IMG/VR virus record: IMGVR_UViG_3300038360_000218
Coordinates: 1 to 29,196 of that record
Direction: 5' to 3' (one strand)
DNA from: a virus
Length of the DNA stretch: 29,196 nucleotides
The notes beneath the pieces were generated by a model that worked only from the letters and a program-made list of their open reading frames with translations, was not told where the DNA came from and ran no database searches. The translations under genes and the position numbers were made by a program. Positions 4,341 through 28,090 of this stretch are shown here, one piece after another (position 1 is the stretch's first letter; each line of letters opens with the position of its first letter).

Positions 4341-4772
4341 ATGGACCAACACATGATGCGCGGGTTCTCTGATGAGATGGAGAAGATCGGGTTCTCCCCC
4401 TTCAAGTTCATGGGTGCCGGCTTCAGGCATCTCAAGAATGCTGTTACTGGCGGGCGTGCCGTTGGCGCTACTGGCCGAATAGGTGGCCGCGGTGCTGACC
4501 GCGCTGGCGGAATAGGCAAGCACATCTCCAGCATCTACCACGGCGCTGGGCAGAAGGCGGGGCGCAAGGCTATGGGCGGAGCGTCAGGTCCTGTGGGTCC
4601 CAAGGCTGAGGGGTATCTCATGGGCGGCCTTAAGGGCGTAGCCAAGTCCAGGTATGGCCAGATGGCTGCTGCTGGTGGCGCTACTGGCCTGGCTGGGTAC
4701 GGTGCATATCGTGCCGTTGGCGGTGGCGGCGGTGGCCGGCAACGTCAGCAGAGCCAGCAGGGCGGCTACTAG
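4341..4772 (+). CDS. Small Gly/Ala-rich virion-like protein with N-terminal FSDEMEKIG motif
   Basis: Unrecognised 143-aa protein starting one base after the RNA polymerase stop. Residues 9-17 read FSDEMEKIG, the N-terminal motif shared by many proteins of this block (candidate capsid-targeting signal). The rest is basic and glycine-rich, with a hydrophobic Gly/Ala stretch near residues 112-128 (MAAAGGATGLAGYGAYRAV) that could insert in a membrane, then a poly-Gly/Gln tail ending in GGY. No enzyme motif is visible. The direct abutment to the RNA polymerase gene implies co-transcription and translational coupling. I infer an internal or ejected head protein from the motif and composition; the function is not known. 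Confidence 0.8.
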   Translation: MDQHMMRGFSDEMEKIGFSPFKFMGAGFRHLKNAVTGGRAVGATGRIGGRGADRAGGIGKHISSIYHGAGQKAGRKAMGGASGPVGPKAEGYLMGGLKGVAKSRYGQMAAAGGATGLAGYGAYRAVGGGGGGRQRQQSQQGGY

Positions 4773-6019
4773 TGAGCGGCGGACCACATTCGTTCTCCAA
4801 CTCCCCGACCCAGTCGGGGCACGGACCCACTGAGATAGAGACGGGGTACATCTCTAGCATCAATGTCCAGAACATGACGGTAGATTGGGTCTCCCAGTAC
4901 ACCGGCAAGTATCAGACAGATGTCCCGATGATGAGTCCGTACGTGCACCGTACCCAGGGTGAGGGCTTCACGGTTATGCCTGAGGTAGGTGCGATCGCTC
5001 TGATGTGCTGGCCCTGTGACGATGCCGTCCCGTTCATTCTCGGGTTCCTGTCTGCGCCAGAGAAGGTGGGCGCGAAGACAGCGGCGACGACGCGTAAAGA
5101 TACCGGGGGAGGCGACACCTCCAAGACGAAGGTGGATGCCACAGGTAAGTCCACCGCGTCTGGAGGCACGCCTAACAAGTCAAACAGCGATGCATCGTAC
5201 AGGGCCAAGCGCCCCATCTTGAACCCCGGCGACATGATGCTGGAGGGCAGGGACGAGAACTTTGTGGTGCTGCGTAGGGGTGGGGTACTACAGCTGGGAT
5301 CTACCCAGGTGTGCCAGCGCTTCTATGTCCCCCTGCTCAACACCATCAGAGACTTCTGCGAGAACTGGGAGATGAACACGGCCGCCGGGTCTCTGGATTG
5401 GGAGGTCAAGAGGCAAGCGAAGGACCCCACAGGTAACGCCCCTACTGAGCTCACCTTGATTGCTAGGGAGTATGCTCAGGATAAGAACGCGTCGATCAAG
5501 GTGTGGATTGGTGGGTTGAACGATGCCACCAAGCCTCCCAGTGGGGACAAGACCTACTTCGAGGTAACGATCGCGCCGGAAAAGATAGACCCAACTACAG
5601 GTAAGGTAACGGGCACTCCCAAGTACGTGCTGCGCGTGGACAAGGCCGGTAATACGTACATGATGCAGGCCAAGAACCGTACGGAGATCATCAAGGGCAA
5701 CTACAAAGAAACGATCTACGGCAACCACACCGAGACCGTGAAAGGCAATCAGTCTGTTACAGTCAAGGGTAATCAGTCTACGGACATCACCGGCAGCCAT
5801 AAGATCACCGGTACGCTGTCCAGTACCGAGACATGGACAGGAATGAAGTCAATTACAGCTGCAACCACGCACATCGGTAGCCAGGCGGCTATAGAGCCCG
5901 CAGTACTGGGGTTCCGTCTAGTAGCCTGGCTAGCCAGCCACATCCACGTACCGTTTCTGCCCCCGGTTACTGCCCCAGCACTGGCCAGTATCCTATCTCA
6001 GAAGGTATTCTTGGTGTAG
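4772..6019 (+). CDS. Baseplate central spike / gp5-VgrG-like protein
   Basis: Likely the tail-tip spike that sits under the tail tube and pierces the cell envelope. The N-terminal region (about residues 24-92) looks like the OB-fold domain of baseplate assembly V/gp5 proteins: GYISSINVQN, then PMMSPYVHRTQGEGF and PEVGAIALMCWP...FILGFLSAP, as in proteins binding the hub. A Thr/Ser/Gly linker follows. Residues about 301-345 (nt 5672-5810) carry short beta-helix repeats of the type IKGNYKETIYGN, ETVKGNQSV, TVKGNQSTDITG, typical of trimeric spike stems. The GTG start overlaps the previous TAG by one base (TAGTG) and there is no better downstream start. The C-terminus after the helix (about 60 residues) is hydrophobic and may form the tip or bind the next small protein. 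No lysozyme domain is visible, unlike T4 gp5. Confidence 0.8.
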   Translation: MSGGPHSFSNSPTQSGHGPTEIETGYISSINVQNMTVDWVSQYTGKYQTDVPMMSPYVHRTQGEGFTVMPEVGAIALMCWPCDDAVPFILGFLSAPEKVGAKTAATTRKDTGGGDTSKTKVDATGKSTASGGTPNKSNSDASYRAKRPILNPGDMMLEGRDENFVVLRRGGVLQLGSTQVCQRFYVPLLNTIRDFCENWEMNTAAGSLDWEVKRQAKDPTGNAPTELTLIAREYAQDKNASIKVWIGGLNDATKPPSGDKTYFEVTIAPEKIDPTTGKVTGTPKYVLRVDKAGNTYMMQAKNRTEIIKGNYKETIYGNHTETVKGNQSVTVKGNQSTDITGSHKITGTLSSTETWTGMKSITAATTHIGSQAAIEPAVLGFRLVAWLASHIHVPFLPPVTAPALASILSQKVFLV

Positions 6020-6028
6020 GAGGACAGC

Positions 6029-6244
6029 ATGCCAGCAGCTGCACTAATAGAAATGTCCATCTTCACGGCGTTTCAAGACACGAAGAACCACGTAGGGCCC
6101 TGTATCACGAAGATGGTAATGAAAAAGACACCGGGTGGGCTCCCAGTCATGATCCCCACCACGGGCACAAAGGCGTTGGACCCGCTATTGGCCAAGGCAA
6201 TCGCAGGTGCGGTGGCTGATGGCATTGCGAAGTTCCTCCCGTAA
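6029..6244 (+). CDS. Small protein next to the baseplate spike, function unknown
   Basis: A 71-aa protein with a strong ribosome binding site (AGGAGG about 6 nt before the ATG). It has a mixed hydrophobic sequence with a PGGLPVMIP turn and a C-terminal Ala-rich helix (LAKAIAGAVADGIAKFLP). Its position directly after the spike gene suggests a spike-tip or baseplate accessory role, the place where PAAR-type tips are often encoded. It lacks the repeated His/Cys metal ligands I would expect of a PAAR tip, so that assignment is only a guess. The ORF is real on ribosome binding site, spacing and operon fit. Confidence 0.65.
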   Translation: MPAAALIEMSIFTAFQDTKNHVGPCITKMVMKKTPGGLPVMIPTTGTKALDPLLAKAIAGAVADGIAKFLP

Positions 6245-6254
6245 GGAGCATTAG

Positions 6255-8261
6255 ATGGAACCCCTCTTCCTGGATAAGAACCCTCTCGAGTTCGAGAAGC
6301 TGGCCTTTGAGTCGCGTCTCGGTGAGGACATGAACAACTGGCCTAAGGAGATCCTGGACGAGCTGTTCCGTCAGGCGCCCTTCACCAGCAACTACACCCC
6401 GAAGGTGGTGATCCGGCAGAAGGATGAAGATCGCCGGTATGCCATGGGTCACATCGAGCTGTACAACCAGCTCGCGATCAACCCTCGGGATGATCAGACC
6501 CCTCGGGAGCTCAAGGGCCGCCATATGGTGCTGGTCCCTATCGTGGTCAAGGACGGCAGGCTACTGCCTCTGGACCTGATAGTGGTCAACGGCGAGGCAG
6601 AGCCCCTGACAGATGAGCGCTTGCGCAGGGCCATGTTCCGCCCCAACCTCTTCGAAGCTATCCAGAAGAAGCCGGGCGACATCAGCATGATCGAGCAGCT
6701 CTACCCACCCCACAGGCAGACCAATTCCGCCGGCGGTAGCGGCAGCATGGGCACCAAGACGTCTAGTCCGCGGTATCTCATGGACGCTATCCTGCCCACG
6801 ATCAAGCTCGCACATGTGCGTGAGGTGGAGGAGGCGCTGAGCGATCCAGCACTGAACTCCGTGATGTTGGAGAACGAAGCGGTGCGCCCGTTCCTGGAGA
6901 AGCTGGGGCAGCGCGTAGAGATGGGCGAGCCATCTGGCGGTGAGTACATGCAGATGGCCGTGGAGTCTATCCATCCTAACGTGGTGCAGATCCAGAAGAT
7001 TGCAGGCGGCTACCGTATCAAGACTGCCAACAACCAGACGTTGATTCCTACCGCGGATGACGTGGACAAGCCCACAGCTATCGGTGCTGTGGGCGGTGAT
7101 GTGATCAACGAGGTAGAGTCGGACGGCACCGTGACTCTTACCACCGCGCCTGTGGTGAAGGAAACTCTCACGGACATCGTGGTCAAGGTGGTCAAGGAGT
7201 TCGGGCTGTACAAGGTCCGCACTTCTGACACCGACCAGGAGCTCGTGGGGTGGGTGTTCCCTAACGTGATGGACCTGGACGGTACGGTCTTGCCCCTGTC
7301 TGTGTTCTCTAACGGTAGCCAGTCCGGTATTCAGGAGAACATCGCGGGTACGCCCATTGACCGCAGCACTGACGTCATCGATGAGCCGCCCAAGGGCATG
7401 GGCAGCTTCTACTACACGGAAGGCAACGGCGCCGTAGGTCTCGTGCCCGTGTCTATCAAGGGCGAGGCGGACGGTAAGTATATCTGCGAGACCATCATGG
7501 GCGAGTCTGTCACGCTGGCTAAGCAGCCCCATCTTCGGATGATCGAGGAGTTGGGAGAGAACGAGTACGCCATCCCAGATACTATGGGATGGCTGCCCTT
7601 GCCGTGTAAGACCAATTTGATATCCATCCCCGATGAGTTCACCAAGAATGCTGAGGCGCGGGAGTGGCTGGATCGTGTTGAGGTGTTTGTCGATGGAGCT
7701 GGCACGTACTCCTTCCGGGGGCACCCCATCGATAAGATCGCACACGTGATGCCGGTCCAGGGATTGGACCGAGACGGCGCGGCATTCTTGGGAGCTATCC
7801 TGGGCCAGGACCCGGAGGTGATGCTGGAGAAGGTGGCACGTACTGCGAACTACGTAGCAACGGGTACGCACGCTACCGCTTTCTCCGCGGGGCCCGTAGA
7901 GACGGCGCAGGAGCACATAGGCATGTCTAAGCAAGCCGCAGCTGAGAGGTGGAAGGACTTCAACGAGCTGTGTGGCAAGTACGGTATGCCCGTAGATCTG
8001 ATTAAAGAGGCCGCCCCGCTGGAGGATCCAGCGTCTGTTGACAAGGTTCTTTCTCTTAAGTTCATCAACCCAGAGAACCTGATGACCTTTGCGTCCTTTG
8101 TACCGGACTTCGAGGAAACCATCAGGAAGCTGAGCACGTTGCTCTTTACCGCCCGTATGGGGTTGAGCGCGGTGGATGAGCACGCACTGCACAAGTGCGT
8201 GATTCACATGGACAAGGTTGTTGATGGTCTGAAGAGTCTGACCGCCACACCACAGGCGTAA
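6255..8261 (+). CDS. Large conserved-looking virion protein, function unknown
   Basis: A 668-aa protein with a good ribosome binding site (AAGGAG before the ATG at 6255) and a 10-nt gap from the previous gene. I do not recognise a catalytic motif. The N-terminus contains EFEKLAF at residues 12-18, a looser version of the motif shared by head-module proteins here. The first 140 residues (PKEILDELFRQAPF, HIELYNQL, LPLDLIVVNG, LRRAMFRP) look like a compact folded domain. The middle is beta-rich with Gly/Ser linkers, and QKIAGGY, DKIAHVM and LEKVARTANY resemble the K-[VI]-A core seen elsewhere. The C-terminus is helical. Size and context between spike and terminase suggest a structural protein. 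A portal role cannot be excluded, but nothing in it looks portal-like to me. Confidence 0.75.
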   Translation: MEPLFLDKNPLEFEKLAFESRLGEDMNNWPKEILDELFRQAPFTSNYTPKVVIRQKDEDRRYAMGHIELYNQLAINPRDDQTPRELKGRHMVLVPIVVKDGRLLPLDLIVVNGEAEPLTDERLRRAMFRPNLFEAIQKKPGDISMIEQLYPPHRQTNSAGGSGSMGTKTSSPRYLMDAILPTIKLAHVREVEEALSDPALNSVMLENEAVRPFLEKLGQRVEMGEPSGGEYMQMAVESIHPNVVQIQKIAGGYRIKTANNQTLIPTADDVDKPTAIGAVGGDVINEVESDGTVTLTTAPVVKETLTDIVVKVVKEFGLYKVRTSDTDQELVGWVFPNVMDLDGTVLPLSVFSNGSQSGIQENIAGTPIDRSTDVIDEPPKGMGSFYYTEGNGAVGLVPVSIKGEADGKYICETIMGESVTLAKQPHLRMIEELGENEYAIPDTMGWLPLPCKTNLISIPDEFTKNAEAREWLDRVEVFVDGAGTYSFRGHPIDKIAHVMPVQGLDRDGAAFLGAILGQDPEVMLEKVARTANYVATGTHATAFSAGPVETAQEHIGMSKQAAAERWKDFNELCGKYGMPVDLIKEAAPLEDPASVDKVLSLKFINPENLMTFASFVPDFEETIRKLSTLLFTARMGLSAVDEHALHKCVIHMDKVVDGLKSLTATPQA

Positions 8262-8262
8262 G

Positions 8263-9159: not shown

Positions 9160-9170
9160 TGGAGGATCCA

Positions 9171-9686
9171 ATGAGTGAAGAAAGGCCGTTCTGGGCTGAA
9201 GAGCCTGCCCTGAAAGATGATGAGTCCGTTCCAGAGAGTGATGTGGTGGGCGCCGTACCCAAGATGAAGTACGTGGTAGGCAAGCACATTGTTGCGCGCT
9301 GGGGTATCCACGAGGGCGTACTCAACTACCACCTGTACATGAAGGAGCGGAAGGACATCCTGGACAGGGCAGAGGCCGCAATGGAAGACGTGCGGCTGAA
9401 TGATCAGCTCCAGCCTCAGCAGAAGGCCGCGGAGATGGATCGTATAGCAGCTGCAGGTAACGCGGAGCTTACGGAGCACCCGTGGCCGAACGGCTTTGCC
9501 GATATCACGCTGAAGCAGTTTGCCGATACGCTTAAGGGCCTGTTCCATGAGCCCAAGCTGGACTACTTCGCAGAGGTAGACAGCTACTCCCTGGCTATGC
9601 CAGAGCCCCAGACCCCGCTACGCGTTCCGGATGATGTCCTTGAGGAGCCCCTTAGGGTCATTGACGGCGTCATCGCTGCACTCTAA
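9171..9686 (+). CDS. Hypothetical protein immediately upstream of terminase
   Basis: A 171-aa protein. I chose the ATG at 9171 because GGAGGA sits 5 nt before it; the in-frame GTG at 9159 overlaps the previous stop but would place the ribosome binding site inside the gene. The N-terminus is acidic (SEERPFWAEEPALKDDESV), followed by a region with YVVGKHIVARWGIHEGVLNY, a helical Gln/Glu-rich stretch (LNDQLQPQQKAAEMDRIAA) and an acidic C-terminus. I do not recognise the family. Its stop TAA overlaps the ATG of the terminase by one base, so the two are tightly coupled. Confidence 0.7.
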   Translation: MSEERPFWAEEPALKDDESVPESDVVGAVPKMKYVVGKHIVARWGIHEGVLNYHLYMKERKDILDRAEAAMEDVRLNDQLQPQQKAAEMDRIAAAGNAELTEHPWPNGFADITLKQFADTLKGLFHEPKLDYFAEVDSYSLAMPEPQTPLRVPDDVLEEPLRVIDGVIAAL

Positions 9687-11586: not shown

Positions 11587-12051
11587 CTACTCGCCGCCCC
11601 AGAGGCCGGCCTCGCGGCCGCCGTAGAAGCCGCCGGCGCCGAGGGCACCAGCCTTGAGGAGCAGGGACAGGCCGCCAGCCAGGGAGTCCCATCCGCCCAT
11701 GGTGAGGTGAGCGATGTCGTGGCCGACGATCGCGCTGAAGAAGCCGTTAACCTTCACGACCCCCAGCTCCTCTTTCATGAACTTGGCAAGCTGCTTCTCG
11801 CCGTCCTTCTCGGCAAGCATGTCCTTGATGAACTGGCGGGCGTCCGCGGCGTCGAAGCCGTCGCCCATCTTGTCGGCGACCATCTTCTCGATCTTCTCGA
11901 GCGCGTTCTCCAGGTCCTGCTTGTTGCCCTTGCGAGCCTCCTCGATGATCTTCTTGACCATGTTGAGGAAATCCTCGGCAGCCTTCTCATCCTTCTTCTC
12001 TTCTTTCTTTTCTTCCTGCTTCTCTTCCTTCTTCGGCGCCGCTGCGGCCAT
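11587..12051 (-). CDS. Lys/Glu-rich small protein with strong codon bias, function unknown
   Basis: A 154-aa minus-strand protein. The start at 12051 is set by AAAGGAG about 8 nt upstream; a longer in-frame start would bury this site. The N-terminus is a highly charged Lys/Glu tract (KKEEKQEEKKEEKKDEK), followed by amphipathic helices (FLNMVKKIIEEARKG, LENALEKIEKMVADKM) and a hydrophobic Gly-rich C-terminus (LAGGLSLLLKAGALGAGGF). Lys and Glu are almost always AAG and GAG and Ile/Leu/Phe mostly C-ending, a bias shared with the capsid gene and stronger than in most neighbours, suggesting high expression. It lies opposite to all structural genes, with the 164-aa gene upstream. I recognise no family; a virion core or abundant accessory protein is possible. 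Confidence 0.75.
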   Translation of the reverse strand: MAAAAPKKEEKQEEKKEEKKDEKAAEDFLNMVKKIIEEARKGNKQDLENALEKIEKMVADKMGDGFDAADARQFIKDMLAEKDGEKQLAKFMKEELGVVKVNGFFSAIVGHDIAHLTMGGWDSLAGGLSLLLKAGALGAGGFYGGREAGLWGGE

Positions 12052-12146
12052 GGTAAAGCTCCTTTCCACTTGGGGTTATGCCAGGGATGTCTATGAGGGT
12101 TCCTTTCCCTAACTCTTCTTCTTATCTCCTGTAATAACTACCTTTT

Positions 12147-13704: not shown

Positions 13705-14035
13705 GTATGCAGCAGCAGCCCTTCTTCTGCGCAGCGGCGCCCTGGAAAAGGATGCAGCTAGCGTTATCCGCACAGGCCTCAAGGCCATGGAAGCTGCTGG
13801 CAAGGCTGGGGCTAAGACCATGGAGCAGGCGGGCCACAAGAATCTGGCTACCGCCGCACGTATTGCACCACACGCAGTAGCTGGCGGCGGTGCATATGCG
13901 ACGTACAAATCGGAGCCCGTACAGAGCACCATTCACGGGGTTAAGGTACGTGTTGAGCGCCGCAAGGCAAAGAAGCGGCAGAAGGCACAGTACAAGATGA
14001 TGATGCTCCAGCGCGCTAGACAAGGAGGATACTAG
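13697..14035 (+). CDS. Small basic head-module protein, ends in GGY
   Basis: A 112-aa protein overlapping the preceding gene by 8 nt. The N-terminus is hydrophobic then reads GALEKDAAS (residues 14-22), a variant of the shared motif. An Ala-rich segment (ATAARIAPHAVAGGGAYATY) is followed by a strongly basic C-terminus (RVERRKAKKRQKAQYK) and a terminal RQGGY. The AAGGAGG that encodes part of this C-terminus also serves as the ribosome binding site of the next gene. Small, basic and Gly/Ala-rich: likely DNA-associated or internal to the head, but unproven. Confidence 0.75.
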   Translation: MDKYAAAALLLRSGALEKDAASVIRTGLKAMEAAGKAGAKTMEQAGHKNLATAARIAPHAVAGGGAYATYKSEPVQSTIHGVKVRVERRKAKKRQKAQYKMMMLQRARQGGY

Positions 14036-14529
14036 TGGCCACTCCCCTGGAAGAGTTCCTTGCCGCACAGAGTGGCGAAGAGATGGAGAAGGATGCGGCC
14101 GGCGCCGCTAGTTGGGGGCAGGCACTGGGCGGCCACCTTTTGCAAGCAGGCGCAACCCTCGCAGTTGCCGGGCTCGGTTCTGCTGGATACCAGGGCTACA
14201 AAGGTATTCGAGAGCGGTATCAAAAGCCGCGCGACTACAAGGCCATGCTCCAGGAGAACCCAAGCCTACGTAAAGAGAGTCCGCGCCGAGTACAGATGCT
14301 GTACAACTCGTTCCGCAAGTTGTCTCCCACTATGGCGTCCGATCCGCTTCTGGCTGGCTCGTTTGTTAGAGACACACTGGCCATGTCCCCCGATGCCGGC
14401 ACCGCGGTCAGTCCAATGACGGCCAAGACAGTAGCCGACACACAGAAGAGCATCTCTGCGTCCCGTAAGTCTTCTGATTTTGTTAAGTGGATGACGAACC
14501 CAGGGGTCAAGGCTCCGTATGGATACTAA
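14035..14529 (+). CDS. Head-module protein with one probable membrane segment
   Basis: A 164-aa protein with a GTG start overlapping the previous TAG (TAGTG) and AAGGAGG 6 nt upstream. Residues 14-22 read GEEMEKDAA (shared N-terminal motif). Next comes a hydrophobic Gly/Ala helix (LLQAGATLAVAGLGSAGY), then a soluble helical domain with ENPSLRKESPRRVQMLYNSF and SDPLLAGSFVRDTLAMSP, and a C-terminal PYGY. A motif-bearing N-terminus plus one membrane-like helix plus a small conserved-looking domain suggests an internal, possibly ejected, protein. Part of the hydrophobic helix is identical at DNA level over 19 nt to the 494-aa gene (14149-14167 vs 18475-18493). Confidence 0.8.
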   Translation: MATPLEEFLAAQSGEEMEKDAAGAASWGQALGGHLLQAGATLAVAGLGSAGYQGYKGIRERYQKPRDYKAMLQENPSLRKESPRRVQMLYNSFRKLSPTMASDPLLAGSFVRDTLAMSPDAGTAVSPMTAKTVADTQKSISASRKSSDFVKWMTNPGVKAPYGY

Positions 14530-14535: not shown

Positions 14536-16404
14536 ATGATCACCAAAGTTTGCCACTATCACGCCCACGAAGAGGGTGAGCCGCTTGTACGGGTGTTTCA
14601 GCCCGGACAGGTAAGCGACTTTGTAAAGACCTCTGCGCCTCTGCAGCCTGACGTGCAGAGGTACATGGAGAAGCTGAAGCCTGACCCTCGAAAGATCTAC
14701 GTGCTGGTCAATGCACTAGGTGCTGGCGAGTTCTGGGGCAGCAACATCAACGGTGACTGGTTCCCCGAGAACGCCCTGATACACGAGGGCATGGACTACG
14801 GGTACAAGACTTTCCTCAACTCCCACTGCTTTGCTCACCACGTTAACAAGGACCCCGCTAAAAGCTTCGGCGACGTAGAGTTGTCTGTCTGGCACCCAGA
14901 CATGAAGCGGGTGGAGCTGGTGATTGCTGTTGACCGTGATCGAGCTCTACGTCTCGGTGCTCCGCACGTTATCGATAAGCTCGATCAGGGTCAGTTCCCC
15001 GATGTATCCATGGGCTGCAAGGTGCCGTACGACTTGTGCTCTGTGTGCACGGACTGGAAGAAGTACAGAGCTGCGCAGGCTACGTTCAACCCCGACATCC
15101 ACCAGACCATTGGTAAAGCCGTACTGGCCTTCCATAGGAAGAACCCCATCCGCGGCGTGTCTGTTACACGTAACGACTACTGCGAGCACCTCAAGAATCT
15201 ACTCAATAAGATCCTCCCCGACGGGAAGAAAGTCTATGCTATCAATGACTTCCCCCGGTTCTTTGACATCTCCTTTGTATTCATCGGAGCGGATAAGACG
15301 GCTAAGGTCATGATGAAGCTGGCGCATGCCTACGGGCAGGATGTTATGCCCTCTTGGCTTCTTGCCGAGCACCTTGGCCATGATCAGCCTGCAGTAGACA
15401 AGGGGTTTGAGAAAGCTGCAGCAGCTCAGATGATTGATCTCACCTCTCCGCAGATGACAGGTCCTTCGCGTAGGAACGCGAAGCTTGAGCGCGTGCTGGC
15501 TAAGCTACGAGAAAAAAGAGCTTCCCAAGATAAGGGCGCAGAGATTACAAAGGAAGTACCCGTACAGTTCGGTTCTAAGGCAGTACCAGTGATCAAGTCT
15601 GAGAAAGATCTAAGCAACAGCGCACTAGATGCTATGGGCAAGCACGATTCTCTCAGCGAGAGTCTGTCAACTGCCAGCTCTATGGGTATGTTGCTTAAGC
15701 CGCGTGAGTTCCAGCGGGTTGTAATCATCAGGCTCGGCATGCCCAGCATGGCAGATGAACTCGATCGCCGTAACCAGGTTTTTAGTCCTACGGACGATAT
15801 CGATGGCTCTGTTCCAGTAGTGCCTGGCAAGTTCAGTGACATGATCAAGAAGATATTGCTGCCTTTTATGCAGGAGAGGAGTTGCCTGGGCCCTGTAATG
15901 CAGCGTAGAATCATCAAAGTCTCACTAGACAAGCCAAAAATGACGCCCGAGCCAGAACATGTAGAGAACGACGAGATCCTGAACAAGGTTGCTGCGTCGT
16001 ATAACAGCTACATAGATCAGGCTATCACCTGCACGATGAACTCAGATAGTGTGCACCGTGCACACCCTGATCTCTGGCAGGCAGTAACCGGGGTCAGCGT
16101 AGCCGATAGTTTTGATAAGACGGCTGCCGGACTTGTTAACCCCGCATCTTTGGCTCTCGGCGGTGCAGGTGCCGGATACTTGTTGAGTCGCTGGGCTAAG
16201 TGGGAAAGAACAAAAGCAACGATGGGCGCGCGTGAGCCCGTCGGTATTATAACAAATACTCTTGCTGATACTCCTGAATTGGCCATGGCTGCTGGTGCCA
16301 TGCTGGGCGGTCACTACGGTGGCTCAAGAATCCCGCGCGCGATTGTAGGTGGAGCAAGAGACGCAGTTGTAGGGGGAGTCAATGCTTTCAAGCGAGGCTT
16401 GTAA
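14536..16404 (+). CDS. Prohead (capsid maturation) serine protease with C-terminal extension
   Basis: Protease that trims scaffold and capsid proteins during head maturation. Residues 54-175 resemble the T4 gp21/HK97-type fold: NALGAGEFWGSNINGDWFP, SHCFAHHVNKDPAKSFGDV with candidate catalytic His97, His101 or His102, RVELVIAVDRDRA, and FPDVSMGCKVPYD with candidate nucleophile Ser158; the spacing of about 57-61 residues fits the family. A Cys cluster follows (C168, C171 and the later DYCEHL), possibly zinc-binding, then DISFVFIGADKTAKV. After about residue 260 an unusually long extension (over 300 residues) holds GFEKAAAAQ, EILNKVAAS and DSFDKTAAG, which match the repeated motif of this block and could be self-processing sites, plus a Gly-rich hydrophobic C-terminus. 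It starts 6 nt after the previous stop, just upstream of the scaffold-like and capsid genes, as expected. Confidence 0.8.
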   Translation: MITKVCHYHAHEEGEPLVRVFQPGQVSDFVKTSAPLQPDVQRYMEKLKPDPRKIYVLVNALGAGEFWGSNINGDWFPENALIHEGMDYGYKTFLNSHCFAHHVNKDPAKSFGDVELSVWHPDMKRVELVIAVDRDRALRLGAPHVIDKLDQGQFPDVSMGCKVPYDLCSVCTDWKKYRAAQATFNPDIHQTIGKAVLAFHRKNPIRGVSVTRNDYCEHLKNLLNKILPDGKKVYAINDFPRFFDISFVFIGADKTAKVMMKLAHAYGQDVMPSWLLAEHLGHDQPAVDKGFEKAAAAQMIDLTSPQMTGPSRRNAKLERVLAKLREKRASQDKGAEITKEVPVQFGSKAVPVIKSEKDLSNSALDAMGKHDSLSESLSTASSMGMLLKPREFQRVVIIRLGMPSMADELDRRNQVFSPTDDIDGSVPVVPGKFSDMIKKILLPFMQERSCLGPVMQRRIIKVSLDKPKMTPEPEHVENDEILNKVAASYNSYIDQAITCTMNSDSVHRAHPDLWQAVTGVSVADSFDKTAAGLVNPASLALGGAGAGYLLSRWAKWERTKATMGAREPVGIITNTLADTPELAMAAGAMLGGHYGGSRIPRAIVGGARDAVVGGVNAFKRGL

Positions 16405-16512: not shown

Positions 16513-17229
16513 ATGAATCCTGAACTCGCAGAGATGTACGGGACCGTAGAGGGCTCGGAGGACGATCTGGAGAAGACTGCTGCTATCGAGATGCTGGTAA
16601 AGATCGCGGATGCAGAGGGCGTTGACCTGGACGATTTCGAGCCGGAGCAGCTCGAGGACATGGTTTTCGATCTGATGTCTGGTGACGAAGTGTACGAGGA
16701 AGAGGATGACTTCCAGGAGAAGGTCGCAGAGGCCGACTACCTGGGCCGTGTCATGGCTCACTCGATGACCCAGGAGCTTGGCAACATCGAGGAAGAGAAG
16801 TACGCCAGCGTGGGCACCGCCGCTTTCAAGGTGAAGCATGCCCCCGGCAAGGCGTTCGGCGCCGTCAAGAAGTACCTCGGCGACGTGTCCGGCCATTCCG
16901 TCAAGGCTCGTGAGGCCCGCAAGCTCAGCATCACCCGCGGTGAATCGGGCAAGAGGAAGGCGCTCGAGAAGGCCCGTGACCTTGCGCAGAAGCGCACTAA
17001 GCAGGTCGGTATCGGTACTGCTCTGACGCTGGCTGGTGCCGGCGGTGCCAAGGAGCTCATGTCCAAGAAGTCCGCAATGGACGAGCTCGCCGAGCAGCGC
17101 GCCTACGAGATGCTGGCGGAAGCCGGTTACCTCGAGGAGGAGAAGGTAGCGAGCAGCCTGGACGAGGCAGTCGAGATGCAGGCCCTCGAGATCCTCGAGG
17201 CGAACGGCTACCCGGTGGATTGGGAGTAG
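16513..17229 (+). CDS. Acidic scaffold/core-like protein with repeated EK-x-A motifs
   Basis: A 238-aa protein with a clear ribosome binding site (AAGGAG) in a 108-nt leader. The N-terminal half is very acidic (DDFEPEQLEDMVFDLMSGDE, EVYEEEDDFQEKV); the middle is basic (KAREARKLSITRGESGKRK) with a short hydrophobic helix (GIGTALTLAGAGGAKELM); the C-terminus is again acidic. It carries DDLEKTAAIE, MLVKIADAE, FQEKVAEAD, EEEKYASVG and EEEKVASSL, four or five copies of the recurring core. Two helical repeats, DELAEQRAYEMLAEAGYLEE and DEAVEMQALEILEANGYPV, look like an internal duplication. Composition, codon bias and position between protease and capsid suit a scaffold or head core protein cut by the protease. 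This is inference, not homology. Confidence 0.8.
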   Translation: MNPELAEMYGTVEGSEDDLEKTAAIEMLVKIADAEGVDLDDFEPEQLEDMVFDLMSGDEVYEEEDDFQEKVAEADYLGRVMAHSMTQELGNIEEEKYASVGTAAFKVKHAPGKAFGAVKKYLGDVSGHSVKAREARKLSITRGESGKRKALEKARDLAQKRTKQVGIGTALTLAGAGGAKELMSKKSAMDELAEQRAYEMLAEAGYLEEEKVASSLDEAVEMQALEILEANGYPVDWE

Positions 17230-17274: not shown

Positions 17275-17574
17275 ATGAGCGCTTTCGCAGACGAGATGAT
17301 CAAGATTGCTGAGACGCAGTCTAGGGATCAAGGCAGCCCGTGGGCTTCAAAGTCCACCGGCACGCCAAGGCTCCAGATGCCTAAATCGTCCATGTCCAAC
17401 GCGCCCACTACCCCCGGTAACCTCGGCCCCAAGGTGATCAAACCTGCCGCAGGCATAGGCAAGCGGCAGAACTATTCTCAACCCACTAGTAATGCACCCC
17501 CTGAGACGAATCCCGGTCAGCAAGCCGGGTTGAGGATGGCCCCGCCGCCTAACGTCGTCTTCGGAGCAAAGTAG
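17275..17574 (+). CDS. Small Pro-rich protein with FADEMIKIAE N-terminus
   Basis: A 99-aa protein. The ATG at 17275 puts the shared motif at the extreme N-terminus (MSAFADEMIKIAE), as in the genes near 27.4-27.8 kb; an in-frame TTG at 17248 is possible but has no better ribosome binding site. The remainder is polar, rich in Pro/Asn/Gly and probably disordered (KSSMSNAPTTPGNLGPK). No hydrophobic segment. It is a clean example of motif plus disordered cargo, as expected for a small internal head protein. Confidence 0.7.
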   Translation: MSAFADEMIKIAETQSRDQGSPWASKSTGTPRLQMPKSSMSNAPTTPGNLGPKVIKPAAGIGKRQNYSQPTSNAPPETNPGQQAGLRMAPPPNVVFGAK

Positions 17575-17583: not shown

Positions 17584-19068
17584 ATGAAGTTCTCGCTGCA
17601 GGAGATGATCCGCCAGACCGTAGGTGAGGCGGAGATGCGCGTTAAGACCGCTGCGGCGGCTGGAGCGCCGATGGAAGAGTCTCCTGAGAAGAAGGAAGAC
17701 AAGAAGAAGCGCCCACCAGCAGATTCTCCAGATGAGAATTCTGCCACGCAGCCACAACGCAACGAGTCCGATATGCACGGCTCGGGCGGCGAGAAGATCT
17801 CCTCGATGTATGTGGAGAAGCTGGCTAGTGCTACCGATTACCTTAACACCCACCTGTGGAAGGTGGGCGGTGCACCGATCACATCCCCCACGGGAGTTAC
17901 CAAGGGCCCCAACACCCTGGAAACGAACGTGGAGTCCCCCACCCCAGGTAAGCAGGTCTCTCCTGGTGGCGGGTCCAAGGGCAAGGCGATCCCCATGAGC
18001 TCGGCCTCTGATGTTAAGAGCCCGGGGCAGACCAACGCGGCTACCGCCATGTTGACTGACATGAATGATCGCCCCGGCGGTGACACGGACTGGCGTACTA
18101 CAGAGCCGATGTCCGAGAAGACGCAGCTTAAGGTCGCGCAGGTGATGGCGAAGCTCGGTTACTCAGAGCCCGCTGCCCAGACCTTCCGTGAGCGTGCCGG
18201 CTTCCGTACGCGTCGTAAAAAGAAGGTCCTGAAGCACGGCCGGTCTGGCGCTACGAACCCCGGGGCACCGTACAACCACCCGCAGCAGCAGGCGGCCCCG
18301 AAGCCGAAGCCTGCGGCAAGTGCCAAGACTACTGCTAAGGCAGAGGCCGGCGCAGCTAAGACAGAAGCCGGCGCAGCCAAGGGTGCCGTTAGCCGTGTAG
18401 GTAAGTTCCTGCGTAGTACTGCAGGTACCGCTGCTCATGGTGGTGGGCGCTTTGGTACTGCCGCACGCGCTGCTGGCGCAACCCTCGCAGTTGGCGGCGC
18501 CATGGGCGGCGGCTACAAGGCCTACAAGGCCATGACCGGCAAGAAGAAGGCAGCGAGTGCGAAGTACGCTGCTGACTCTGAGAACGCCGCCAGCATGTTG
18601 GCAGCCCATCACGAGAACATGCCGCCATTTTCTCAGGCGGAAGAGAAGGTCCCGTCGCTCCCGTCCACGGCCAGCAAGCAGGAGAAGCTGATCATGGATA
18701 TCAAGAGGGCGATCAGTTACACGAAGAATGACGCGAAGTCCGTTCCTAAGGCGCAGATGAGTGAGGTACTCACTGAACCAGCTCAGAGGAAGGCTACGGA
18801 TCCGGTACTTCAGGAGAACTTGGACTGTGCCAAGGCGCCGGGGGCTACCAAGCTCTCGTCCGTCCAGAAGGTTGCAGCTGCCAAGACTCTGCTCCGCAAG
18901 ATCGCGGAGGAGGGAGCGGCGCCAGATGCCTCTCCCGAGCAGAAGGAGAAGGCCGACAAGTTGAAGGCCATGATCCTGTCCAAAAAGGAAGGCCCCGACT
19001 CCAAAGAGAAAGAAAAGGAGTCCATGTGGGGAGACAACGAGAACCAGCCGCTTGGCGGCGGCTACTAG
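17584..19068 (+). CDS. Large low-complexity head protein with glycine-rich module and GGGY end
   Basis: A 494-aa protein with a good ribosome binding site (TAGGAGG). The N-terminus has EAEMRVKTAAA (residues 15-25). Recurring cores follow: YVEKLASATD, LKVAQVMAK, KKAASAKYA and VQKVAAAKTLLRKIAEEG. Most of the chain is disordered Pro/Ser/Thr/Lys sequence. The stretch AEAGAAK-TEAGAAK is a 21-nt tandem repeat. Then comes a Gly/Ala module beginning AVSRVGKFLRSTAG (nt 18385-18501) that is repeated in the 557-aa protein, and a hydrophobic segment AGATLAVGGAMGGGY. The C-terminus is Lys/Glu-rich and ends LGGGY. I see no enzyme domain. Best reading: a multi-site processed core or internal protein of the head. 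Confidence 0.8.
   Translation: MKFSLQEMIRQTVGEAEMRVKTAAAAGAPMEESPEKKEDKKKRPPADSPDENSATQPQRNESDMHGSGGEKISSMYVEKLASATDYLNTHLWKVGGAPITSPTGVTKGPNTLETNVESPTPGKQVSPGGGSKGKAIPMSSASDVKSPGQTNAATAMLTDMNDRPGGDTDWRTTEPMSEKTQLKVAQVMAKLGYSEPAAQTFRERAGFRTRRKKKVLKHGRSGATNPGAPYNHPQQQAAPKPKPAASAKTTAKAEAGAAKTEAGAAKGAVSRVGKFLRSTAGTAAHGGGRFGTAARAAGATLAVGGAMGGGYKAYKAMTGKKKAASAKYAADSENAASMLAAHHENMPPFSQAEEKVPSLPSTASKQEKLIMDIKRAISYTKNDAKSVPKAQMSEVLTEPAQRKATDPVLQENLDCAKAPGATKLSSVQKVAAAKTLLRKIAEEGAAPDASPEQKEKADKLKAMILSKKEGPDSKEKEKESMWGDNENQPLGGGY
18340..18381 (+). repeat. 21-nt tandem repeat (two units) encoding AEAGAAK/TEAGAAK
   Basis: Two consecutive 21-nt units (18340-18360 and 18361-18381) differ at only a few bases and encode the 7-residue units AEAGAAK and TEAGAAK inside the 494-aa protein, just before the shared SRVG module. 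Probably replication slippage in a linker. Confidence 0.75.
18385..18501 (+). repeat. SRVG/AHGGGR module, copy 1
   Basis: This 39-residue segment, from AVSRVGKFLR through TAAHGGGRFGTAAR to TLAVGGA, matches the segment at 25334-25450 at 31 of 39 residues by hand count. It has no gaps and many shared codons. It ends in a hydrophobic Gly-rich stretch also partly shared with the 164-aa protein (19 identical bases). It looks like a mobile membrane-associated module inside otherwise unrelated low-complexity proteins. Confidence 0.85.
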
Positions 19069-19077
19069 GAGGCCGAG

Positions 19078-19973: not shown

Positions 19974-21095
19974 ATGGCAGTTCCTGCAAGCATCCTGAAT
20001 GATCTCTTCGCCCAGAAGCTGGATTCGGCTGATGGGAAGGAGAAGGTCGCTGAATACGCTGGTACCTACATCAGGGACCGGCTGCGTGAGGTTAGCTTCG
20101 CGCGCAAGATCGTACCGCCGCAGATGGTCACCAAGGCCGACTGCCAGCGTTCGGTCAACCACGATACGCTGATCAAGATCGTGGACATCGAGCCGAAGAG
20201 CAAGGCCATGGCCTTGACCTTCCGCGGTCAGCCGACTGCACGGTTCATCACCGCTAACCGGGCCGAGGTGGCTTTCTTCACCATCGCGTCCGAGAAGTTC
20301 GAGAAGACCGAGCAGGAGCTGCTCGCGTACGAGATGCCTGTGACGAAGATCATCGAGGACAACTCGGTGAAGGACATCCAGGAGATCGAGGACCGCGAGT
20401 GGTTGGTGCATGTTGAGGCTGCTGTGCAGGCTCTGCAGACCGACGCCAACGGCGCCGCCACCGCTCTGCACTTCACCACTGTGCAGGCCGGCACGGTCAT
20501 CGAGTTCGCAGCCCGTAAGGGTGAGCTGGCTCGCGTGGCTACCACTGGTACGGCAGTTTCCCTGCCCATCCAGCGTCCTGACTTTGTCAACCTCTACAAG
20601 ATGCTCGACACCAACCGCCTGCGTGCGGAGGTCGTGCTGATGACCGAGGGCGACTGGGACGACATCCTGCAGTGGACCGTCGAGGACTTCGGTGACAAGC
20701 TGCAGAGCGAGACCACCACGGACGGGTACAAGTACAACCTGATCCTGGGTCGCTCCTACGTCCGTACCATCAAGACGGACATCCTCCGGGCCGGCAACGT
20801 GTACTGCTTCACCAAGCCCGACTTCTTCGGCAAGTTCTACGTGCTGAACAACACCAAGTTCTACATCGACAAGATCGCGAACTTGATCACGTGGCAGTCC
20901 TGGGAAGACATCGCGGTGGCAGTCATCAACATCGCCGCGGTCCGGAAGCTGGAGCTGTACTCCGGTGACGCCAACCCGACGACCGATGTCGAGGGTCTGC
21001 TCACCTCTGTCACCCCGGTGGCTGAGGAGGATCTCGGTGCAGAGAACAACAAGGTTGAGTCTGGGCTGCACTACCCGGATGTCGAGGTCTACTAG
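19974..21095 (+). CDS. Major capsid protein (HK97-fold type)
   Basis: A 373-aa protein forming the icosahedral head shell. The start at ATG 19974 is set by AGGAGA 8 nt upstream; a longer open frame from 19848 overlaps the previous gene without a ribosome binding site. After a short helical N-terminus with DGKEKVAEYAG (a candidate processing site in the recurring core) come SFARKIVPPQ, FRGQPTARFITANRAEV, FFTIASEKFEKTEQEL, MPVTKIIEDN and EDREWLVHVEAAV, then LQWTVEDFGDKLQ, GRSYVRTIKTDI and TKPDFFGKFYVLNNTKFYI, a pattern consistent with HK97-like capsid proteins of large myoviruses. Codon bias is strong and the gene is closed by a strong terminator. The assignment rests on length, position, bias and pattern rather than a residue-level match. 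Confidence 0.8.
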   Translation: MAVPASILNDLFAQKLDSADGKEKVAEYAGTYIRDRLREVSFARKIVPPQMVTKADCQRSVNHDTLIKIVDIEPKSKAMALTFRGQPTARFITANRAEVAFFTIASEKFEKTEQELLAYEMPVTKIIEDNSVKDIQEIEDREWLVHVEAAVQALQTDANGAATALHFTTVQAGTVIEFAARKGELARVATTGTAVSLPIQRPDFVNLYKMLDTNRLRAEVVLMTEGDWDDILQWTVEDFGDKLQSETTTDGYKYNLILGRSYVRTIKTDILRAGNVYCFTKPDFFGKFYVLNNTKFYIDKIANLITWQSWEDIAVAVINIAAVRKLELYSGDANPTTDVEGLLTSVTPVAEEDLGAENNKVESGLHYPDVEVY

Positions 21096-22016: not shown

Positions 22017-22018
22017 CC

Positions 22019-22381: not shown

Positions 22382-22383
22382 TA

Positions 22384-22638
22384 ATGTTGTCTACTATTGC
22401 GCTGGGAGCCATGTCAGATGAGATGGCCAAGATTGCTGCTAACAAGTGGCTAGCAGCAGCCAAAGCACGGGGCTGGATAGAGTACGTGACGAAGAGTGGA
22501 AAGAAGGGTTATCGCAACCCGACGTATATGCGGCCAGGAGCCCCCAACACTGGAACAAGGAGTGGGGGCCAGACTATTAAGCCGCGGGAAGGAGTCCCTA
22601 ATCCCTGGACGCGTAGTGGCGGCGTTAATCTAAGCTAA
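22384..22638 (+). CDS. Small basic protein with MSDEMAKIAA motif
   Basis: An 84-aa protein. ATG 22384 has AAGGAG 5 nt upstream; an internal ATG at 22411 would put the shared motif (AMSDEMAKIAAN, residues 9-20) at the very start. The rest is basic and polar (KWLAAAKARGWIEYVTKSGK, RNPTYMRPGAPNTGTRSGG), probably disordered, with no hydrophobic segment. A further case of motif plus short cargo. Confidence 0.7.
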   Translation: MLSTIALGAMSDEMAKIAANKWLAAAKARGWIEYVTKSGKKGYRNPTYMRPGAPNTGTRSGGQTIKPREGVPNPWTRSGGVNLS

Positions 22639-22651
22639 TTGAGGACCCCAG

Positions 22652-23164: not shown

Positions 23165-23173
23165 GAGGCGATC

Positions 23174-24793: not shown

Positions 24794-24805
24794 AAGGAGA
24801 GCAAA

Positions 24806-26479
24806 ATGGATGACTTCCTGACGAAGATGTTTCAGGACGAGCAGGAGAAGATCGCCGCGGCGGATACTGAGGCGTACTTCAACCTGATGAGTGTGAATGA
24901 GCTTGAGGACTACCTTGGTATCGTCAAGGAGGCACGTCCTCGGTCTGCGCGTAGGAAGAGATTGGATCGAGTGAGGGCCAACGAGTTCAACAGGCAGGCT
25001 GCTAACGCAGAGGCGGGCCGCGGTGCGCCACCCAGGCCTCAAAAGAGGCGCAAGAGCCGTAAGTATCGTCAGCAGGAGACTGCTAGGCGAGCCGGTCGGA
25101 TGAACAAGCAGCGTGCAGTACCGCGTCCAGGTACGCCGCCGCCTCCAGGAAGTGGTGGGCGCCGGTCTGGTGCTTCTAACCCACCACCGCCCACTCAGCA
25201 GACGCGACCTCGGAACACCCAATCGGGTGTTCCGAAACAGAAGGCGAAGGTCCCCCCGGGTGCCGCAGCGCAAGGTGCATACAAGGCTACCGGCGTGCCC
25301 AGCGCCGTAAAGACCACAGTGGTTAAGCCTTCTGCCGTAAGCCGCGTAGGCAGCTTCCTTCGGGGTGCGGCTAATACTGCTGCTCATGGCGGCGGGCGCC
25401 TTGGTACTGCTGCACGCGTGGCTGGTGGCACACTAGCTCTTGGCGGCGCCGGGTATGGCGCGTCTAAGGCATTTGGATTCGGCAAGGGTAAGAAGCCGGC
25501 GTATAGCAAGGTCGCTGCTGTAGGTGGCCCCGAGAACCCTCCCATGCCTAAGGGCATGGCCGCAGTAGAGAGGAAGCTGGCGGCCAAGGCGCGTGAAGTG
25601 CGTGCTCTTGAGAAAGAGAAGGAGGCTGGAGTGCCCTGGGGTATTGCAGCTCCAGCACTGGCAGGCGGAGCACTAGGCGCTGCTTACTCACGTAAGGGCC
25701 ATGGGGTAGCAGATACTGCGCGCGGTGCTGGTGTAGGCGCTGCGACGGGTGTCGGCGCAGGACTTGGCGGCGTAGGAGGGGCAATTGGTGGCGGTCTGGC
25801 AGGCGCCGGCACCGGCGCTCTTCTAGGGTCCCTTGGCGGGGCCAAGGGGAGGGCTTTGGGAGCTGCTGTAGGCGCAGGCGCAGGGTTCGGCGGCGGCCTT
25901 ATTTACGGCGGAGTTAAAGGCGGGAAGAAGGGGTATTCCGTAGGCAAGAAGCACATGTGGGATAGCGCGAAAGGGCGCGGCAAGAAGGAGAAGAAGGCCG
26001 AAGCTCTATACTCCGCGGACGCTGCCGGCCGGATCATGGCCAAGATCGCAGCTAAGGGAGGAGATGACGACGCCAAGTTCTCCGTGAAGCCTAAGTCGTG
26101 GGTCGCTGGGCAGAGAGGTTCTGGACGCGCTATGAGCCACAAGGGCGAGGGTAAGGTCCTGACTGACAAGCTCGTCGGAAGGATGGGCCGTAAAGGGGTG
26201 GAGCAGGCCAAGAAGGGTATGGGCGTCGGCGCTAGCGTAGGAGGGCTCGCAGGTATTGCTACAGGTTTGGCTGCGGCGCGCAAGGGCAAGAAACTCCCGG
26301 CTGCTGCGCTCTTGGGCCTTGGCGGTGCCGGCTTTGGTACCGTTACGGGCGCGAGCATAGGTAACTCTCGCGGCCAGATGGGGGCCATGAATGACCACCT
26401 GCGCAAGAAGGGCATCAAGTCCAGTTGGGGCGGCATGAAGCTTCGGTACACTCCTAAGGCGGCGAAGAAGTACCTGTAG
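24806..26479 (+). CDS. Large Gly/Ala-rich multi-membrane-segment protein with QEKIAAA N-terminus
   Basis: A 557-aa protein with a strong ribosome binding site (AAGGAG). It begins MDDFLTKMFQDEQEKIAAAD, a clear instance of the shared motif. Next is a long basic Pro/Arg-rich tract (residues about 45-170), then the SRVG/AHGGGR module (nt 25334-25450), SKVAAVGG, and a very Gly/Ala-rich region with several hydrophobic glycine-zipper segments (WGIAAPALAGGALGAAYS, GVGAATGVGAGLGGVGGAIG, LGAAVGAGAGFGGGLIYGGV, GVGASVGGLAGIATGLAAAR, AALLGLGGAGFGTVTGASIG). It also holds RIMAKIAAKGG. Tandem glycine zippers are typical of pore-forming or membrane-spanning peptides, so an ejected channel protein is a reasonable idea; direct evidence is lacking. 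Confidence 0.8.
   Translation: MDDFLTKMFQDEQEKIAAADTEAYFNLMSVNELEDYLGIVKEARPRSARRKRLDRVRANEFNRQAANAEAGRGAPPRPQKRRKSRKYRQQETARRAGRMNKQRAVPRPGTPPPPGSGGRRSGASNPPPPTQQTRPRNTQSGVPKQKAKVPPGAAAQGAYKATGVPSAVKTTVVKPSAVSRVGSFLRGAANTAAHGGGRLGTAARVAGGTLALGGAGYGASKAFGFGKGKKPAYSKVAAVGGPENPPMPKGMAAVERKLAAKAREVRALEKEKEAGVPWGIAAPALAGGALGAAYSRKGHGVADTARGAGVGAATGVGAGLGGVGGAIGGGLAGAGTGALLGSLGGAKGRALGAAVGAGAGFGGGLIYGGVKGGKKGYSVGKKHMWDSAKGRGKKEKKAEALYSADAAGRIMAKIAAKGGDDDAKFSVKPKSWVAGQRGSGRAMSHKGEGKVLTDKLVGRMGRKGVEQAKKGMGVGASVGGLAGIATGLAAARKGKKLPAAALLGLGGAGFGTVTGASIGNSRGQMGAMNDHLRKKGIKSSWGGMKLRYTPKAAKKYL
25334..25450 (+). repeat. SRVG/AHGGGR module, copy 2
   Basis: Second copy of the 39-residue module (AVSRVGSFLR, NTAAHGGGRLGTAAR, TLALGGA) found in the 494-aa protein at 18385-18501, 31 of 39 residues identical by hand count. 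Synonymous differences are frequent, so the duplication is not recent. Confidence 0.85.
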
Positions 26480-27387
26480 TGGATAACATCAACTTCACAG
26501 AGCTGCGTGTTCGTACGTTCTCCTTGGACTTCCTTGAGTTGACCTGGGAGATCGAGAACACGCTGCTCGATGTGCTGGACTACACCATGTACATCGAGCG
26601 TAGCGAGTCTGAGATGGGCCCCTGGGATACTGTTGCTGGGCCCTTCAAGGACCGCTACCGCTTTGTGGACAACAGGGTCAACCAGCTCGATCGCTGGCGG
26701 CAGATCTGGTATCGGATCAAGTCCATAGAGAATGCCGACACTGACAACATAGAGTACTCAGACCCCGTGTTGATGGCGGCTGAGCCTGACCTGATCGCCG
26801 CAGAGGTACAGCGCCAGGAGAGGCTGCTGTGGGAAGAGTACGCAGGCCGTAGGGTCTTCGTCTTCCCCATCCGTACCTTTGGTCAGCGCTGCGGCAACTG
26901 CTACGACGGGCACGAGAAGGGCAAGGGCTTCACGTCTCAGAGGCGCAGATCACATTGCGCTACCTGCTACGATACAGGGTTCGTGCGTGGCTACCTCAGT
27001 CCCATCGAGGTGTTCATGCAGATCGATCCCTCTCCTAAGACTGTCCAGCCACTACCTGTTGGGGAGCGCCAACAAAGTGACACAAGGGGCCGACTTCCCA
27101 ACTTCCCACTGCTGAAGCCCAGGGATATAATTGTCGAAGCTGAGAATAGGAGGTGGCGCGTAGTACAGGTGAACAGCACTGAGAGACTGAGAAGTGTCGT
27201 GCGCCAGGAACCTACGCTCCATGAGATTGCAAAGGGAGACATCGAGTTTGGCCTGCCAATCAGGCTGGACTCGATAAAGGACTTCGAGCCGAGCCCCATG
27301 CGTAACTTCACGAACCCCCAGACACTAGAAGCGTTTGAGGATGCGGTGATAAATGACGTTCTGGGTATATACGGGTACGATACATGA
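26479..27387 (+). CDS. Putative neck/adaptor protein with FN3-like and zinc-ribbon domains
   Basis: A 302-aa protein. The GTG start overlaps the preceding TAG by one base (TAGTG); the next in-frame ATG is far inside. Residues 1-100 look like a fibronectin-III-type beta sandwich (LDFLELTWEIENTLLDVLDY, YTMYIERSESEMGPWDTV, WYRIKSIENADTDNIEYSDP). A zinc ribbon follows: C138-x2-C141 and C160-x2-C163 (RCGNCYDGH ... SHCATCYDTGFVRGYLSP). The rest is beta-rich (PRDIIVEAENRRWRVVQVNS). It ends four bases into the next gene (ATGA). Position between the internal-protein genes and the tail-completion gene supports a head-tail connection role; the specific role is inference. Confidence 0.75.
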   Translation: MDNINFTELRVRTFSLDFLELTWEIENTLLDVLDYTMYIERSESEMGPWDTVAGPFKDRYRFVDNRVNQLDRWRQIWYRIKSIENADTDNIEYSDPVLMAAEPDLIAAEVQRQERLLWEEYAGRRVFVFPIRTFGQRCGNCYDGHEKGKGFTSQRRRSHCATCYDTGFVRGYLSPIEVFMQIDPSPKTVQPLPVGERQQSDTRGRLPNFPLLKPRDIIVEAENRRWRVVQVNSTERLRSVVRQEPTLHEIAKGDIEFGLPIRLDSIKDFEPSPMRNFTNPQTLEAFEDAVINDVLGIYGYDT

Positions 27388-27764
27388 TCGACTACTCAGC
27401 GTTCACAGATGAGATGCTCAAGATTGCGGCGAATAATGATCGCCGCAGTAACATGTTGGCGGGTGCTGCAATCGGCGGTGCCACGTCTGGTGCAGCCGGG
27501 TATGGGATAGGCCAGCTATCGGGCCGAGCGCAAGCTAGTAGGTTCAAAGACACTACTAGGTCGCTGGCAAAGGGCTTGGGAATGAACGCCGATAATGCAC
27601 AGTGGCGTAGTAAGGGACTTACAGGCAAGGTTACTTCTCATGGAGCAGGCAAGGCTGGGTACAAGGGGCTGAAGCGCGCTATGGGAAACAAAACGGGGCT
27701 GATACTTGGCGGCCTTACCGGTCTGGTAGGCGCGGCATCGGGCGCACTTAGGAGCAGTAGTTAA
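27384..27764 (+). CDS. Small membrane-like protein with FTDEMLKIAA motif (paralogue A)
   Basis: A 126-aa protein whose ATGA overlaps the previous stop. It begins MIDYSAFTDEMLKIAANN, the clearest form of the shared motif, then has two Gly/Ala hydrophobic segments (NMLAGAAIGGATSGAAGYGI and LILGGLTGLVGAASGAL) around a basic linker. It is built like the next gene (motif, basic linker, hydrophobic segments), and the two probably arose by duplication. Candidate internal, ejected membrane protein. Confidence 0.75.
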   Translation: MIDYSAFTDEMLKIAANNDRRSNMLAGAAIGGATSGAAGYGIGQLSGRAQASRFKDTTRSLAKGLGMNADNAQWRSKGLTGKVTSHGAGKAGYKGLKRAMGNKTGLILGGLTGLVGAASGALRSSS

Positions 27765-28090
27765 TGATCAATTACTCCTCATTTGCTGATGAGATGACCA
27801 AGATCTCAGAGGAGCAGAAGCGCGAGGCTACCAAGCCTCGGCTTAAGAGGCTCATGACCACCGTAGTACCCGCTACGGCAATTGGTACTGGTCTCGGGGT
27901 TGGTACTGGGAAGCTGATCAGCAGTAAGATGTCGCCGGCACGGTTGGCAACGCTAAATAAGAGCTTTGGACGCAAGTACGGACCCGGTATGCTAGGAGGC
28001 GCGGCAGGTATTGTAGGCGGACTGGCTGCCTACAGATCTAGGCGCATAAAAAAGTATCTGGACGATGGCAAAGAGCGCAGATCCAAGTAG
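27764..28090 (+). CDS. Small membrane-like protein with FADEMTKIS motif (paralogue B)
   Basis: A 108-aa protein; its ATG overlaps the preceding TAA by one base. It begins MINYSSFADEMTKISEEQ, then a basic linker (REATKPRLKRL), a hydrophobic segment (TTVVPATAIGTGLGVGTG), a basic loop, a second (GMLGGAAGIVGGLAAY) and a basic tail (RSRRIKKYLDDGKERRSK). The last position of the motif is Ser rather than Ala. The 3' end overlaps the next gene by 26 nt. Confidence 0.75.
   Translation: MINYSSFADEMTKISEEQKREATKPRLKRLMTTVVPATAIGTGLGVGTGKLISSKMSPARLATLNKSFGRKYGPGMLGGAAGIVGGLAAYRSRRIKKYLDDGKERRSK

Follow-up and report, generated by a model that had tools for sequence, protein, structure and literature searches.

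In phage T4, unrelated basic proteins have in common a short N-terminal helix, the capsid-targeting sequence (CTS), in which targeting residues come first and processing residues later: targeting needs residues 4 and 7, processing residues 8 and 10 (PMC9026906). The phiKZ-like phages, exemplified by SPN3US, have propeptides mostly 111–254 residues long, SPN3US gp245 cuts after Glu at A-X-E sites, and the part of the source drawn on here describes no shared tag (PMC10052503). Like the phage studied below they are large, and the resemblance would extend to widespread proteolysis in the head, a large set of internal proteins and a protease that itself carries a C-terminal propeptide. Polyvalent proteins and the Dar proteins of phage P1 represent capsid-packaged, injected anti-defence cargo; in the portions of the literature used here, InPase is listed among the domains of polyvalent proteins, for which packaging and injection are assumed (PMC5512222), Dar proteins are large, and no shared short tag is described (PMC5512222, PMC12810830). 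Here we describe a 10-residue tag on otherwise unrelated proteins encoded in a 29,196-base IMG/VR fragment (record IMGVR_UViG_3300038360_000218; the window, meaning this whole stretch), which comes from a large tailed phage and covers part of its late region. Judged from sequence, the tag most likely loads small basic proteins into the head, from which they would be injected into the bacterium, its targeting role being well supported, if indirectly.

The consensus of the tag is M-x(~7)-[AS]-F-[FLYV]-D-E-[LM]-[EQ]-K-I-[AG], with a 10-residue core that is N-terminal in most carriers. From an alignment of 112 N-terminal instances, in which the position of the tag is fixed, residue 9 being the commonest start of the aromatic core, we built a position weight matrix (PWM) that was applied with a cut-off of 14 bits. 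Because the regular expression used for training had required the Lys, the count was redone without this requirement; 102 of 115 tags then had Lys at +2, and Ile came next in 93 of the 115. The tag is amphipathic, with a moment of 0.40 versus 0.24 in shuffled sequences. Six genes of the window carry it in full, all on the plus strand: GFSDEMEKIG (residues 8–17, 4362..4391; 28 bits) in gene 4341–4772, whose 143-aa product is basic and contains 27% Gly; AFADEMIKIA (residues 3–12, 17281..17310; 24 bits) in gene 17275–17574 (99 aa), which has homologues in other loci, orthologues retaining the tag; AMSDEMAKIA (residues 9–18, 22408..22437; 23 bits) in gene 22384–22638 (84 aa), for which a homologue search found none; MFQDEQEKIA (residues 8–17, 24827..24856; 21 bits) in gene 24806–26479, encoding 557 aa with a net charge of +67 and 19% Gly; AFTDEMLKIA (residues 6–15, 27399..27428; 25 bits) in gene 27384–27764, whose 126-aa product has hydrophobic segments rich in Gly; and SFADEMTKIS (residues 6–15, 27779..27808; 23 bits) in gene 27764–28090 (108 aa). 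The enrichment at protein starts was confirmed: the PWM gives 6 N-terminal matches in the window and 0 in shuffles, and a regular expression gives 8 versus 0.10. The initial annotation of this stretch had quoted eleven peptides, all of which were found at the named genes, as one motif shared by at least ten proteins. This holds for the six genes above; the five 'looser' peptides (GALEKDAAS, GEEMEKDAA, DDLEKTAAIE, EAEMRVKTAA and EFEKLAF) lack F-x-D-E-[LM] and are copies of a second, shorter motif, phi-x-K-x-A, described further below.

Since the window record is a 29-kb fragment, whole-genome tests were run on relatives, which among viral contigs reach 190–195 kb; genes were called on ten large relative contigs (117–196 kb, some of them fragments) and on two distant controls. 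At 14 bits or more, 9 of the 10 relatives had 2–9 N-terminal matches per contig and G010 had 1, compared with 0 in both distant controls and about 0 in shuffles. Over all loci fetched, BLAST of the tagged proteins with the tag taken off leaves about 95 separate families, and 69 family representatives showed 69 different 30-mers with varied codons, placing the recurrence in the proteins and not in the DNA. An IMG/VR scan with the exact DNA pattern for FFDEL.KI[AG] returned 58 matches at 50 loci, most of them 3–12 codons past a start codon. The capsid protein of this lineage is encoded on 11 of 15 pattern-bearing contigs tested; of the other four, three have the match away from the N-terminus and one is a fragment with other genes of the lineage. 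The tag is confined to one capsid lineage, and all 47 N-terminal tagged genes counted (nine contigs) are read in the same direction as the capsid gene (P = 1.8e-8). Pattern matches at internal positions in G023, G030 and G031, as well as a kinase-like protein in G007, were rejected as chance matches. The N-terminal placement stressed by the initial annotation is the usual one, yet some relatives have the full tag at an internal position, often directly past a small domain (InPase, DUF5661, J-domain or ATQQAHK domain), or at the C-terminus, and phi-x-K-x-A occurs internally as well. In IMGVR_UViG_3300045125_000140 (L270, L272, L288), adjacent tagged genes have a near-identical N-terminus around GFFDELxKIA and different bodies. 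Among annotated isolates, Salmonella phage Arash and three Vibrio phages are the nearest and the only ones to share the capsid protein, at less than 30% identity; the tag is absent from both isolates of this group that were examined (2 of 4), and the Arash virion proteome (PMC10585845) was not usable because these isolates are too distant and the two examined lack the tag. Capsid relatives in contigs of metagenome-assembled genomes (L304, L305, L306) bear conflicting labels, namely Deltaproteobacteria, uncultured bacterium and Methanoregulaceae.

The second motif, phi-x-K-x-A, makes up the closing part of the tag but also occurs by itself; its logo, [LFM]-E-K-[TV]-A-[SAE], resembles that part. 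In tags without Lys at the second position after DE[LM], phi-x-K-x-A often recurs three residues, that is one helical turn, later; these two spacings suggest that the tag consists of two separable modules on one helix. The counterpart of the whole tag may be found in g13 (16513..17229, plus strand), an acidic helical protein with a net charge of −25 that is encoded between the protease and capsid genes, the place taken by the scaffold in T4, and was studied in a 45-sequence alignment and an AlphaFold2 (AF2) model. The most conserved g13 segment, MAHSFADEMRKIA or MAHAYVNELNEIEKSAG in orthologues, resembles the complete tag in both spacings; its residues G78, R79, A82 and E88 are invariant in the alignment and, although outside the PWM training, it scores at least 12 bits in 37 contigs. 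In the window this tag-like segment is degenerate (MAHSMTQELGNI; 16753..16788, plus strand). On the same strand, g13 also encodes LEKTA (K21, A23; 16567..16581) and K70-V-A72 (16720..16728), both at least 90% conserved, and K211-V-A213 (17143..17151; K 97%, A/S 95%).

Beyond g13, KTA ranks second among the tripeptides of the lineage (275 versus 175 expected), which is not so in the controls, and the K-x-A excess is highest in the terminase–protease–capsid module. A plain composition effect was rejected, as ATK, AIK, AVK and R-x-A are not similarly raised. When residue pairs x.y conserved within poorly conserved surroundings were listed for 18 family alignments, K.A made up 13 of 30 and the next commonest pair 2, and no comparable conserved pair appeared at other spacings in these alignments. 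Seven head-module families contributed such K.A pairs (genes 6255, 12766, 14035, 14536, 16513, 17584 and 23174), whereas none was found in the alignments of RNA polymerase (beta plus beta' in one continuous reading frame, 3–4340, its start outside the window), terminase (9686–11515; phrog_675), the T4 gp5-like spike (4772–6019) and genes 8263, 22652, 26479 and 28065. Plus-strand copies of phi-x-K-x-A near N-termini are LEKDA (13742..13756), seen in the sequence of gene 13697–14035; MEKDA (14083..14097) in gene 14035–14529, with K 100% and A 95–100% at a local family conservation of about 0.4; FEKLA (6291..6305; K 97%) in gene 6255–8261 (668 aa); and K21-T-A23 (17644..17652) in gene 17584–19068, the last two genes having more conserved copies inside. 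Internal copies are present in g4, g9, the protease, g13, g15 and g23, and the alignment of the major capsid protein (gene 19974..21095, plus strand; phrog_2522) shows a conserved K24-V-A26 in the N-arm (20043..20051, plus strand). Two minus-strand genes, 11587–12069 (Lys/Glu-rich) and 12147–12641, lie inside the plus-strand head module.

A candidate enzyme for such sites is the prohead protease (14536..16404, plus strand; phrog_18299), whose gene lies upstream of the major capsid gene on the same strand. Its catalytic domain was delimited to residues 47–264 (14674..15327, plus strand) by the AF2 model (predicted local distance difference test score, pLDDT, 78) and the VIA-align range. The best VIA-align match is T4 gp21 (5jbl_B; Z 9.6, root-mean-square deviation 2.6 Å over 131 residues), with herpesvirus assemblins next (Z 5–9); a first Foldseek run against the PDB gave nothing significant, and Foldseek also matches the model to phage prohead proteases. 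The domain is predicted to adopt the assemblin/gp21 fold, matching both groups. H101, H102 and S158 are nearly invariant and D244 invariant across 45 protease sequences, as judged by alignment only and with no superposition on the gp21 triad. Seven K.A sites are conserved in the protease, four of them at low-confidence breaks around the catalytic domain and three (K254, K261, K484) elsewhere (P = 0.04). The four, all on the plus strand, are K31-T-S33 (14626..14634; K 95%, A/S 88%) at the end of the disordered N-terminal segment, where pLDDT is below 50 up to residue 32; K293-A-A295 (15412..15420; K 82%, A/S 98%) in a disordered linker past the catalytic domain (low pLDDT at 279–313); K333-G-A335 (15532..15540; K 98%) in a second disordered linker stretch (low pLDDT at 326–352); and K528-T-A530 (16117..16125; K528 at least 90%) at a break before the C-terminal helices (low pLDDT at 528–531). 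The candidate cleavage site, exemplified by the peptide AFFDELEKIAAS, differs from herpesvirus and gp21 sites in its sequence, which closes with Ala and is followed by S, A or E. Herpesvirus sites are of the form x-A/S and T4 sites of the form x-E, and candidate phi-x-K-x-A is closer to the former. The protease of one relative (L116:4449-6614) has acquired an InPase domain (8e-40) within its linker, and K.A sites flank the insertion. In relative G001, Hint and LAGLIDADG domains indicate inteins that interrupt both TerL (L168:15371-18295) and the protease (L169:1237-5256); split TerL matches are seen in other relatives, too.

The proteins behind the tag are distinctive as a group. Tag excluded, net charge per residue is +0.087 in 78 tagged families versus −0.008 in all proteins (P = 1e-28); Gly and Ala are raised and aromatics are fewer, a composition as expected of internal head proteins. 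Pfam searches identified InPase (PF18823, with E values as low as 2e-44), DUF5661 (PF18905, 3e-12) and, more weakly, DnaJ among tagged proteins, domains typical of the polyvalent proteins introduced above, InPase being among those listed for them; the six window cargos gave no recognised domain in the Pfam search. An untagged protein of relative G001 holds both InPase and DUF5661. Thirteen proteins have a small ATQQAHKLGK domain (L165:5805-6281 and homologues) without a Pfam match at E 0.05, and in 8 of them it is fused to the tag.

On these grounds we consider it probable that the motif is a bipartite capsid-targeting tag, in which a docking helix copied from a scaffold is joined to a likely cleavage site, the cargo being injected afterwards. 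Module 1, [AS]-F-x-D-E-[LM], would lie along one side of a short N-terminal helix of amphipathic character and, as a copy of the most conserved g13 segment, would dock its carrier in the prohead core as this grows. Module 2, phi-x-K-x-A, would be the site at which the gp21/assemblin-type prohead protease cuts the tags, the scaffold and itself, as its conservation and positions suggest; cutting would free the cargo and clear the scaffold before DNA packaging. Small basic, Gly/Ala-rich proteins and InPase/DUF5661/DnaJ proteins of the polyvalent type would then stay in the head and be injected with the DNA. The independent, T4-like capsid-targeting signal proposed by the initial annotation thereby stands as the best-supported reading, by lineage, strand, cargo and likeness to g13, while its cleavage step draws on conservation and position only. 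A more far-reaching version, to which we would give somewhat less than even chances, holds that, through convergence or exchange, some hundred unrelated genes came to carry a copy of the scaffold docking helix and that the protease acquired a new specificity for phi-x-K-x-A, with the cut after Ala. A single code would then define the virion-internal proteome and the maturation sites, including effector domains inserted in the protease.

Several observations weigh against the bipartite tag. g13 is a candidate scaffold from its position, charge and helicity only, and its K.A sites are located within AF2-predicted helices, whereas cleavage sites are typically exposed; the break test for the K.A sites of the protease is a weak one (P = 0.04); and in some of the InPase or DUF5661 proteins of the lineage no tag could be detected. 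Internal and C-terminal tags are no less compatible with a docking motif than with an N-terminal propeptide. The main rival, which keeps the targeting role, accordingly holds that F-x-D-E-L and phi-x-K-x-A merely bind a partner in the head (the capsid inner surface, the scaffold or a hub protein) without any cut at K-x-A. It is favored by the helical location of the g13 sites as well as by one K.A site (residue 300) buried within the conserved fold of the capsid protein. We nevertheless regard it as rather unlikely, as K.A is found at the low-confidence breaks flanking the protease catalytic domain and on both sides of the inserted InPase domain, and the targeting part of the tag is separable from the K.A part, as in the T4 CTS (PMC9026906).

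It is improbable that the tag instead sends late proteins to the tail, the baseplate, the membrane or the virion RNA polymerase. Late-strand location alone is shown directly, and several cargos give weak Gly-zipper-like matches, as such a destination might predict; yet the module with the highest K.A enrichment is that of terminase, protease and capsid, the polymerase, terminase, spike and 26479/28065 alignments are devoid of conserved K.A in divergent surroundings, and the tag resembles a protein encoded next to the protease. Inheritance of the T4 CTS itself appears very improbable. The layout is the same, a short N-terminal helix on unrelated basic proteins with targeting residues ahead of processing residues (PMC9026906), T4 IPII and IPIII start with MKTYQEFIAEA, and T4 likewise has a gp21-fold protease and the gene order protease, acidic helical protein, capsid. 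However, the T4 sequence (M-K-T-[YF]-x-E-F) is a different one, ending in L/I-x-E where the tag ends in K-I-[AG], and the PWM gives IPI, IPII and IPIII −6 to −17 bits, which argues for an analogue of the T4 CTS. The tag also differs from it in being present on many more families per lineage, in its occasional internal or C-terminal location and in resembling a segment of a candidate scaffold. Chance, or descent from one duplicated gene family, can practically be dismissed: some tagged genes do stand in tandem, but matches are near zero in shuffles, the families number about 95 and every DNA 30-mer is different.

Our literature search, which did not cover subscription papers, returned no paper with the motif strings and no description of such a tag. 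The CTS strategy is known from T4, and the tag of this lineage appears to be a sequence-unrelated variant of it. If this is true, tags for protein delivery by the phage head would have a second example, unrelated in sequence to the first, and the CTS strategy would have arisen outside the T4-like phages by copying of a scaffold segment. For most phages the set of injected proteins has not been established, and for uncultured ones it hardly ever is. Provided that the tag is indeed a head-loading code, a 10-residue profile would list candidate injected proteins, including early anti-defence cargo, directly from metagenomes.

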